This document shows, piece by piece, positions 2,740-5,525 of a stretch of 64,000 nt of DNA. Positions within the stretch are counted from its first letter, which is position 1, and every line of letters begins with the position of its first letter. Made by a program: the position numbers and the translations under genes. The DNA lies in contig NZ_FOIT01000008.1 of NCBI RefSeq assembly GCF_900110815.1, positions 1 through 64,000 of the forward strand. Reading direction: 5' to 3'. A model generated the notes under the pieces. The model was not told the DNA's origin. It made no database searches and saw only the letters and a program-made list of their open reading frames with translations. This DNA is from Aliicoccus persicus (lineage in GTDB: Bacteria > Bacillota > Bacilli > Staphylococcales > Salinicoccaceae).

Positions 2740-3095
2740 TGACACACCTCACTATTGTATTTTTACTTCTTTAATTTAGCAGTTCATTCAAAATTATGCA
2801 ATCTATATTATATGTATGTGTTTTAAGAGATGTGTAAATATGTTATGATTAAACTACTTAAGAACATTCGGGGGGTGTGAATATTATGTCAAATCTAACT
2901 ATAAACATTGTAATTGTAAATATTCACGCCCAGGAGTTTGTTTAAAACGATCTGTTTAAGGTATCCTTAAACCCTTTTTAAATATATATCACTCTTTTTT
3001 GGGGGCGTGTATACTTCGTATGCGTCTTTTTTGGTGCGTGAATATTCTAGTTATATCACTTTTGCCTAGCGTTTTACAAAGAGAGGAATATTATA
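2740..3095 (+). promoter_or_regulatory. Structured leader upstream of the RsgA-like GTPase
   Basis: A 356-bp gap without a convincing gene but full of inverted repeats. A 13-bp stem pairs 2873-2885 with 2919-2931. A hairpin GTTTAAGG/CCTTAAAC (2954-2972) is followed by CCTTTTT. A second hairpin (3007-3025) is followed by TTTTTT. A third copy of GCGTGAATATT (3036-3046) can pair with 2919-2929, competing with the first stem. A possible -10 (TATGATT near 2844) precedes it. I read this as an attenuator- or riboswitch-like leader; the ligand, if any, is unknown. Confidence 0.5.
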
Positions 3096-4106
3096 ATGAA
3101 AAATTTTAATGATTACGGAATAAGTCGTTATGAAGATGAATTCGGTTTAGAAAATGTTGGCCGAATTATAGAGAAAAGACATTATTACTATGACGTATTT
3201 TATAATGGAAGAGTTTTAAGGAATATTGAGAAGGTCCGGAAGTTATATGAAACATCGATTGTCGTTGGTGATTTTGTCTCGCTAGCTAATTATGAAGGTG
3301 TGACATACATCGATGCTTTAAATGAGCGAAAATCTAAAGTGTCAAAGCAATCGAGTCATGCGTCTAAAAGTTTTAATGAAAATCATGATGAACAGTTGCT
3401 TGCTGCGAACGTGGATCAAGTGTTTATATTGATTGCTGCAGATCAGCGTTTTACTTTATCAAAATTTGAACGATATTATGCAGTGTTTAATCAACCGAAT
3501 ATTGATTTACATGTACTGATATCAAAAGCAGATTATGTTGAGAATATGATTACAATTATTGATGAAATTTCATCAGTGTATCCGAATATAATGATTACAC
3601 CAATCAGTATGAATCAAGAAGAGACGATTGAGTCAGTTAAAGCACTTATTGAGAAATATTCGACTTCGATGTTTATCGGTGCTTCCGGTGTTGGAAAATC
3701 AACGCTTGTGAATGCACTGAGCGGTGTCGGTGAATTGACGAATGATGTGAGAAGTGATGGTAAAGGAAAACATACGACGACACATACGAAACTTATACCA
3801 CTTGAAGAAACGAGTTCTTATTTAATTGACACTCCTGGATTTAAAACGATTAGTACAACAGCCGAGATTGGACTTGAGGCTCTGTTTCAACCGATTTATG
3901 ACAAGATGAATGAGTGTAAGTTTAATGATTGTTCACATAAACATGAACCGGGATGTGCAGTGATTGCTGCGGTAGAAAGTGGAGATATATCAGAGGTATT
4001 ATACGAAAGGTATTTGGTTAACGAGAAGAAATTCGAAGGTCAGTTGAAGCATGAAAATAATAAGGAATCGAAGAAAGCGCGTGAGCTCAAGAAAAAGTTA
4101 AGCTAA
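3096..4106 (+). CDS. rsgA: RsgA-family circularly permuted ribosome-assembly GTPase
   Basis: 336 residues with the permuted G-motif order of RsgA/YjeQ/YloQ: a G4-like ISKAD at 142-146, then P-loop GASGVGKS at 195-202, then DTPG at 245-248. A C-terminal zinc site has C274, C279, H281 and C287. RsgA proteins check 30S subunit maturation and use GTP to release. The N-terminal part (about 90 residues, OB-fold region) is longer than in the ~290-residue housekeeping RsgA, so this may be a paralogue. That is an inference from length and from standing alone outside the usual prkC/rpe context. G4 has Ser instead of Asn/Thr. Start ATG follows GAGAGGA. Expression is probably governed by the leader at 2871-3047. 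Confidence 0.85.
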   Translation: MKNFNDYGISRYEDEFGLENVGRIIEKRHYYYDVFYNGRVLRNIEKVRKLYETSIVVGDFVSLANYEGVTYIDALNERKSKVSKQSSHASKSFNENHDEQLLAANVDQVFILIAADQRFTLSKFERYYAVFNQPNIDLHVLISKADYVENMITIIDEISSVYPNIMITPISMNQEETIESVKALIEKYSTSMFIGASGVGKSTLVNALSGVGELTNDVRSDGKGKHTTTHTKLIPLEETSSYLIDTPGFKTISTTAEIGLEALFQPIYDKMNECKFNDCSHKHEPGCAVIAAVESGDISEVLYERYLVNEKKFEGQLKHENNKESKKARELKKKLS

Positions 4107-4113
4107 AAATTAG

Positions 4114-4146
4114 GGTCCGATGATAATATTCATCGGACCGTTTTTT
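4114..4146. terminator. Rho-independent terminator after the RsgA-like gene
   Basis: Stem GGTCCGATGA / TCATCGGACC, loop TAATAT, followed by TTTTTT. It overlaps the last codons of the convergent esterase-like gene and may serve both. Confidence 0.88.
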
Positions 4147-5338
4147 ATTTTTCGATATAATCCATATAGATGAAAGCATCGAAATGATCATTTGGAATGA
4201 ATTCGACTGGCCATTCTTCGTGACCAAAATCATACATGAGTAATTTTTCGTCTGCCCAATCTAGACTATTCAATGGAACAAAGAACTGGTCCTTCTTAAA
4301 TTCACCTAATAAATATTCTACTGACCTTTTATCTTGTTTACGACCATAATCATTACTTTCGTCACCTTGAAAAGCTTCATATTCATTGGAAGCTTCATTA
4401 AAAATTGTAGCAACAATGAGTACATTTAAATCAGATGCCTCAAGAAAGTGACCCAGGCTGTATGTCAATTCGTCTTGTCGAAAGTCATCGACATAATTAA
4501 TTGGAGAGAGTGATTTTGAAGCATGCATATTATGAACATAGACGATAATTTTTTCATCTTCAGCTACCAGCTCTTCTATATTTTCAAGCATCCCTTTACC
4601 GCGACGGGCATAATAATCTTCACTGTCATTCGAAATATCGAGATCCTCAACGAAATCTTCATGCATAGGACCCTCAAGCACATTTACACGTTCTTTTATA
4701 TATGCTTTGCTTTCGGGAGATAACGAGTCAAAGTAATCACTATTAATGATTGTGTTATAGATATCTAATGTTTCATTTGCCAATGCAAAATCCATTGTGT
4801 TTTTAGTTAATAGATCATATGTGAAATTTCTCATTCGATATTCAGCTGTTTTAAAATCTGCTGTATCCCAAAATTGTTCAATATCTTCCGTGATATACAA
4901 TTCTTCGAATGTTGAGTTAGTAGGTTGACCTGAAGGTCGACTCATCCAATTCATGCCTGTGACATGCAGACTTTCGGTCTCTAGGAGCTCAGGTAACATT
5001 GGATTAATTGAAAGTATGTGTGGGTCGATGATATTAGTTAGAACATCTTCAACACTGTGACTATCTTTGTATTGATTAATGAAAGTCCAATAATCTTTTG
5101 ACTGCTCAAAAGCCACTGTGGAGAAATTATGATGTTCGTTTAAGTAGAGTGCGAGCTCTGCATGAAGCGTTGTCATATCACGTGAGTTGTGTGTACTTTC
5201 AGCTAATACAATCACATCATACTCTTCGAAGTAATTGCCAAGTTCTGACCAATCCTTATTTAAATCATAAATATGTTCAGTATCTTCGTTTGAGAATCCA
5301 ACGAGGAATAAAGTGAGCAGTAGTGCGAGACGTTTCAT
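4145..5338 (-). CDS. Erythromycin-esterase-like exported protein
   Basis: 397 residues starting with a short hydrophobic signal (MKRLALLLTLFLVGF) and no lipobox. Motifs recall the erythromycin esterase/EreA-like fold: VIVLAESTHNS (E47, H50), an acidic FEQS (E78), and YVHNMHASK near 268-275 with His-Asn/His pairs. In that fold a His/Glu pair activates water for ester hydrolysis. Real substrates of most family members are unknown, so macrolide resistance should not be assumed. The start is the ATG at 5338, preceded by GGAGGTT; an upstream in-frame extension lacks a ribosome site. Divergent from a membrane protein, with tRNA-Leu between them. Confidence 0.6.
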   Translation of the reverse strand: MKRLALLLTLFLVGFSNEDTEHIYDLNKDWSELGNYFEEYDVIVLAESTHNSRDMTTLHAELALYLNEHHNFSTVAFEQSKDYWTFINQYKDSHSVEDVLTNIIDPHILSINPMLPELLETESLHVTGMNWMSRPSGQPTNSTFEELYITEDIEQFWDTADFKTAEYRMRNFTYDLLTKNTMDFALANETLDIYNTIINSDYFDSLSPESKAYIKERVNVLEGPMHEDFVEDLDISNDSEDYYARRGKGMLENIEELVAEDEKIIVYVHNMHASKSLSPINYVDDFRQDELTYSLGHFLEASDLNVLIVATIFNEASNEYEAFQGDESNDYGRKQDKRSVEYLLGEFKKDQFFVPLNSLDWADEKLLMYDFGHEEWPVEFIPNDHFDAFIYMDYIEK

Positions 5339-5525
5339 AGTAACCTCCGAATAGATTGATGTATTAATAATAACATGATGTAAGGTGTCATTTTGGGGAT
5401 ATTCAAGTTGAAAATCACAGTTTCTTTTATTCGTGTTGTTAGCGGTTCTCAAATCAGCCTTTTCGTAACAGTTATAATCACAAACAAAAACCTCTACCAC
5501 CATTATGATGAGAGGTTTTAATCGA

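Follow-up and report, generated by a model that had tools for sequence, protein, structure and literature searches.

A probable ribosome-mediated transcription attenuator upstream of a second RsgA-type GTPase gene in Aliicoccus persicus

RsgA is a checkpoint of late 30S assembly. In the 64,000 nucleotides of Aliicoccus persicus DNA analyzed here (the window, meaning this whole stretch), a gene for an RsgA-type GTPase is preceded by a leader RNA in which one segment is forced to choose between partners. The initial annotation considered this leader an attenuator or a riboswitch. The questions are which pairing is decisive, and what could make the choice. Our analysis supports the attenuator. 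A ribosome-mediated transcription attenuator probably controls this gene, whose product is a second, non-housekeeping RsgA-type GTPase comparable to HflXr; its inducer and the benefit of the protein we infer. The features are listed in Table 1.

Table 1. Positions of the leader elements and of the GTPase gene in the window
Feature	Position	Strand	Basis
Extended -10 promoter element (TGTTATGAT), probable	2841..2849	+	Read from sequence; putative start site ~2855-2857
Shine-Dalgarno-like sequence of the leader ORF (GGGGGGUG)	2870..2877	+	Sequence; 4-nt anti-SD match in scoring
Segment 1 (GGGTGTGAATATT), ribosome-binding part of the leader and partner of segment 2	2873..2885	+	13-bp helix
Leader peptide ORF (MSNLTINIVIVNIHAQEFV), 19 codons	2886..2945	+	Sequence; leader ORFs of relatives at the same place
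Segment 2 (AATATTCACGCCC), leader codons 12-16; partners are segment 1 or the terminator 5' arm	2919..2931	+	
Hairpin A (GTTTAAGG-TAT-CCTTAAAC), then CCTTTTT	2954..2979	+	Terminator scan (hairpin 2954-2972)
Segment 3 (GGGGGCGTGTATAC), 5' arm of terminator B and alternative partner of segment 2 (antiterminator)	3001..3014	+	
Terminator B, hairpin 3001-3029 whose 3' end extends into the six-T run 3027-3032	3001..3032	+	12-bp helix 3001-3012/3018-3029; -10.1 kcal/mol
Second perfect complement of segment 2, 3' of terminator B	3036..3046	+	11-bp helix with 2919-2929
Ribosome site of the GTPase gene (AGAGAGGA)	3080..3087	+	Sequence
RsgA-paralog GTPase, 336 aa, subfamily A	3096..4106	+	PF03193 2.5e-38; TIGR00157 4.2e-43; tree

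The protein is a member of the RsgA GTPase family. It has the circularly permuted GTPase domain (G4-G1-G3 order), the G motifs and the C-terminal Cys/His zinc motif. The motifs ISKAD, GASGVGKST, DTPGF and C-x4-C-x-H-x5-C are intact, and they are invariant or nearly so in the alignment. A canonical RsgA is also encoded elsewhere in the genome of Aliicoccus persicus, with 34% identity to the paralog. Relatives were collected by a search of genome contigs with a five-protein profile. In a tree of 53 proteins, the paralogs are grouped in a clade of their own, separate from canonical RsgA (support 100/100), and the window protein is not among the canonical proteins. Subfamily A includes the window protein and those of Jeotgalicoccus, Phocicoccus, Ornithinibacillus, Sporosarcina, Facklamia, Helcococcus, and Streptococcus, and subfamily B includes those of Fictibacillus, Terribacillus, Arthrobacter, and others. 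Nothing points to a mobile resistance gene, because the search of plasmids returned only distant RsgA-like matches (~33% identity).

An ABM-domain protein (PF03992) is encoded at 2434-2745 on the - strand, divergent from the leader. An erythromycin-esterase family protein (PF05139, 1.3e-10) is encoded at 4145-5503 on the - strand, in convergent orientation to the GTPase gene; membership of this family is no proof of drug hydrolysis. A DinB/mycothiol-transferase-like gene (PF04978) lies 3' of the GTPase gene in Ornithinibacillus (L119, 3609-4136), and a similar protein is encoded at the corresponding place in Sporosarcina (L120, 3631-4161).

The leader has the layout of a textbook attenuator. 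The 1:2 and 2:3 pairings are mutually exclusive, and 3:4 is a predicted terminator of moderate strength. A mechanical scan of 2871-3047 for helices of at least 11 pairs finds exactly three: 2873-2885/2919-2931, 2919-2929/3036-3046, and 3001-3012/3018-3029. The first two are the helices described in the initial annotation, and both are present where it had placed them. The duplex of segments 1 and 2 (-20.3 versus a shuffle mean of -11.1) has p=0.005, and that of segments 2 and 3 has p=0.010, also against shuffles. Only 4 of 2000 dinucleotide shuffles contain a segment that takes part in two helices of such lengths (13 bp or more and 11 bp or more).

Two hairpins with T-runs had been noted between these partners. 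One of them, at 2954-2972, is confirmed by the terminator scan, while the other is better placed at 3001-3029 with the T-run 3027-3032. Hairpin A is AU-rich and weak (-6.2 kcal/mol). Being a palindrome with T-tails on both strands, it could also end leftward transcripts. Terminator B is GU-rich with only moderate stability, and it is absent from the consensus terminator scan, which does report hairpin A. The -10 element is not among the reports of the consensus scan.

As is usual for leader-peptide attenuators, a short ORF with a ribosome site (GGGGGGUG) is located 5' of the gene. This 19-codon frame had been recognized, and its presence holds, although the side role once given to it does not. 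The leader peptide ORF is likely the sensor, and the ribosome site inside the first stem, previously regarded as an obstacle, would be what makes the device work.

The effect of a ribosome on the leader ORF was examined by constrained folding, in which the P site was set codon by codon with four footprint sizes at 37 °C and 25 °C. With no ribosome, the 1:2 pairing (0.98) coexists with terminator B (0.68). A P site on codon 1, 2, or 3 lowers terminator B to 0.15, 0.00, or 0.15, respectively, at 37 °C (0-0.28 at 25 °C), and segment 2 then pairs with segment 3 instead. Once the P site has reached codon 4, terminator B recovers to ~0.6-0.7 and stays there, except that it drops in part, to 0.45, at the stop codon. 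The effect of codons 1-2 is seen with all four footprints and also at 25 °C, and that of codon 3 is seen with three of the four and is weaker at 25 °C. Only one of 200 shuffles of the leader codons gives a drop of equal size. In these computations, the fold is set by where the ribosome stands on the ORF, and release occurs at codons 1-3.

The following mechanism can be proposed. By default, the 1:2 fold would join the leader ribosome site with codons 12-16 and terminator 3:4 would form. A ribosome moving on through codon 4 and beyond would likewise leave the terminator free. A ribosome held on the first leader codons, its initiation or early elongation being blocked, would cover segment 1. Segment 2 could then pair with segment 3, and RNA polymerase would read into the GTPase gene. 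The leader ORF is presumably translated, and hairpin B presumably terminates transcription. The trigger may be an antibiotic that targets the ribosome or a comparable stress on it, and the GTPase may restore or protect 30S subunits. What the analysis shows is that the segments are complementary, more so than chance would give, that folding computations confine the switch to a window of codons, and that relatives repeat the layout.

Several points stand against the model, among them the moderate stability of terminator B. Hairpin A is formed at ~0.9-1.0 under early stalls and is insensitive to early ribosome positions; if it is an efficient terminator, it would act whatever the early stalls, and the model would need revision. 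The Shine-Dalgarno sequence of the leader is only a moderate match.

The upstream regions of 93 paralogs of the class Bacilli were compared with those of 24 canonical rsgA genes. Leader ORFs with strong Shine-Dalgarno sequences precede 76 of the 93 paralogs and 7 of the 24 canonical genes (Fisher p=2e-6), where the canonical controls come mainly from the family and order of Aliicoccus itself. Duplex strength was tested against shuffles for 75 leaders with mutually dissimilar peptides. The 1:2 duplex reaches p<=0.05 in 37 and the 2:3 duplex in 29 of the 75 (~4 expected each; KS 8e-23 and 4e-15), a test in which L047 was scored with a wrong ORF. The leader ORFs of L119, L007, and L047 were assigned by hand. 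The excess of complementarity is a covariation of the layout, while the sequences themselves are unrelated. Even the closest orthologs, with ~50% protein identity, have leaders that cannot be aligned with the window leader, and the comparison at the level of the layout is strongly positive. Examples are L036 with MAKFNLVNATSYFVMDITR (terminator -16 kcal/mol), Fictibacillus with MRQLKGLTSESVLFLVQPIGTMKNSR, Jeotgalicoccus with M[TS]YLKHNEKFIVP, and the leaders of L119 and L120 (Ornithinibacillus and Sporosarcina). Outside Bacilli, the Arthrobacter-type loci of Actinomycetota (L182, L183, L188, and L192) also have a strong-SD leader ORF, with the similar peptide MTATVRCALRANISQ..IPAPAIST.

Most relatives of the terminator type allow antitermination while a ribosome is on approximately the first 1-6 codons, and no longer when it is further along. 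Folding gives early-codon release also in L006, L033, L036, L040, L043, L047, L053, L101, and L110, and co-transcriptional early-codon release is seen in L066, L075, L079, L119, L129, and L172. The statistic on truncated transcripts was restricted to pairing with the leader ORF; counting every pairing of the terminator arm with upstream sequence gives too much noise. The dependence on early codons arises partly because segment 1 overlaps the ORF start, and the aggregate excess over shuffled leaders is modest, as 18 of 45 loci exceed 0.3 where 10.6 are expected. In around one third of the loci (e.g., L053 and L158), the truncated RNA folds into the antiterminator by default, with no ribosome on it.

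Two groups of leaders are usually without a terminator: the Brevibacillus-like group (L042, L049, L050, L054, L055, and L060) and the Exiguobacterium-like group (L037-L039, L044, L045, L051, L056, L057, and L062). Their leaders contain CCTCC in the last codons, which can pair with the ribosome site of the gene itself. From inspection, these lineages appear to use translational, not transcriptional, attenuation. Phocicoccus and some Facklamia are leaderless, and their gene sits behind an ABC exporter. In L121, L125, L126, L130, and L132, the gene for a subfamily-A GTPase is directly behind an ABC-exporter gene with no attenuator (PF00664 and PF00005 were confirmed in L121). A LanC-like protein (PF05147) is encoded further upstream in Facklamia miroungae (L126). 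It is possible that the arrangement of exporter and GTPase represents a self-protection operon of a peptide cluster.

The leader could instead contain two ordinary intergenic hairpins, which end upstream transcripts for example, with complementarity by chance and no regulation. The global folding energy of the leader is unremarkable (z of only -1.63); this value is uninformative, and it is at least compatible with such hairpins. The T-tails of hairpin A on both strands would fit as well, and the neighboring genes could need a terminator. The rarity of the arrangement among the shuffles and its recurrence in independent lineages speak against this explanation, and we consider it unlikely.

A ligand-binding riboswitch or a protein-responsive leader (for GTP, ppGpp, or a ribosomal protein), containing the ORF by chance, would have the same mutually exclusive stems with a terminator. 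That no known class fits the leader had been noted from the start, and a covariance-model scan of the window leader and the leaders of 15 related loci agrees, as no Rfam riboswitch, T-box, or leader family is found. The relatives share the layout with no sequence core, unlike an aptamer, and most paralogs have the strong-SD ORF at the same place. The proposal of a ligand-binding riboswitch is left without support, and explanations of this type are very improbable.

What is read on the leader ORF can be approached from the peptides. Stall motifs of the macrolide type (RLR/IFVI) are absent from the window leader peptide, which sets it apart from macrolide-type resistance leaders. In a set of 71 dissimilar leaders, only L115 contains R-[LIVF]-R, and IFV/[IV]F[VI]I occurs in none. 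Attenuators of the trp/his type, which respond to amino-acid starvation, follow the identical 1:2/2:3/3:4 logic. Runs of a single amino acid are absent from the controlling codons of the window leader, and no trend to them is seen among the 71 dissimilar leaders. Besides, the target gene is not biosynthetic, so that starvation control has very little to recommend it and the leader is not classified as an amino-acid biosynthesis attenuator.

Within a genus, the leader peptides differ mostly by non-synonymous changes with the frame kept, and Fictibacillus leaders have a codon-sized gap in the loop that preserves the frame. Synonymous and non-synonymous counting reveals no purifying selection on the leader peptide, and peptide-specific stalling was not adopted for this reason. 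Because the peptides change freely, translation of the leader is backed by the position, the Shine-Dalgarno sequence, and the frame, not by the conservation of the peptide. The variability may be taken to speak against a peptide-specific stall and in favor of a leader that senses ribosomes unable to move away from the start region.

Another candidate is the copy at 3036-3046, which the initial annotation treated as the decisive partner and which might act on RNA stability or GTPase translation: it is a perfect 11-bp complement and captures segment 2 once the RNA is extended to 3047 with a ribosome stalled on segment 1, but it is present only in RNA already past termination, leaves the GTPase ribosome site uncovered, and has scarcely any likelihood as the functional partner. 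It cannot decide termination at 3032, because it is transcribed only after the T-run and hairpin B still forms alongside its pairing. The decisive partner is the terminator's own 5' arm at 3001-3014, which had been overlooked. The copy is the third GCGTGAATATT-like sequence, located behind the terminator, and is perhaps an RNA-stability or reset element.

The ribosome-mediated attenuator belongs to a well-known class of mechanism. The novelty lies in the target gene with its breadth and in the sensing close to the start. Searches of the open-access literature returned no account of an attenuator upstream of rsgA, and a record may exist in published term-seq data or supplementary tables. A second RsgA held behind an attenuator in lineage after lineage, with dissimilar leaders, suggests that it is needed only when translation is obstructed. 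The natural trigger is probably a ribosome-targeting antibiotic, because of the analogies to hflXr, the uORFC-6-1 motif of hflX, and the WblC-activated paralog of Streptomyces. The recurrent layout before sister genes across many Gram-positive bacteria hints at an as yet unstudied response to ribosome trouble, probably to antibiotics. It can be speculated, as a tentative idea that we hold with less than even confidence, that RsgA paralogs are widespread and unrecognized inducible GTPases for 30S ribosome protection or rescue, the 30S counterpart of HflXr, turned on by a sensor that responds in general to ribosomes stuck near the start and not by a drug-specific stalling peptide. Attenuators of such kind could be found by their layout where sequence and Rfam signals are absent.

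ermC has an antibiotic-inducible attenuator in which a ribosome is held on the leader ORF. In the attenuators of vmlR, ermC, and msrD, a ribosome held in this way turns 1:2/3:4 into 2:3, as is proposed here. Transcriptional and apparently SD-sequestering versions occur in that type and also among the leaders of rsgA paralogs. The targets of vmlR-, ermC-, and msrD-type attenuators are ABC-F factors or rRNA methylases and their stalling is peptide-specific, whereas the paralog leaders are without IFVI/RLR.

A pair of RsgA/EngC paralogs in Streptomyces coelicolor is reported to be activated by WblC, with tetracycline (PMC7157823). There the WblC/WhiB7-induced paralog is controlled via a transcription factor, unlike the cis-attenuator proposed at the gene here. 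E. coli without RsgA shows a 2- to 4-fold lower MIC of gentamicin (PMC10295648), which is consistent with a role in ribosome stress but concerns the housekeeping copy. The uORFC-6-1 motif upstream of hflX in Bacillales likewise combines a uORF with a structured leader and was proposed to be an antibiotic-stall attenuator (PMC8632094); its RNA structure and RLR peptide are conserved, whereas no conserved RNA core is seen here.

A close resemblance is also seen to hflXr (lmo0762) of Listeria monocytogenes, where rli80, an attenuator with a leader peptide, precedes a paralog of a ribosome-associated GTPase (PMC6310831). In both cases, a transcription attenuator with a leader peptide, a probable one in the window, stands before the GTPase paralog and the housekeeping copy is elsewhere. 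They differ in that HflX acts on the 50S/70S (splitting) and RsgA on the 30S, that the hflXr leader has the RLR macrolide motif, while R-[LIVF]-R is in only one of the 71 leaders here, and that the predicted release here is at the first codons. If the model is true, inducible ribosome defense of the HflXr and ABC-F type would gain a 30S-directed GTPase.
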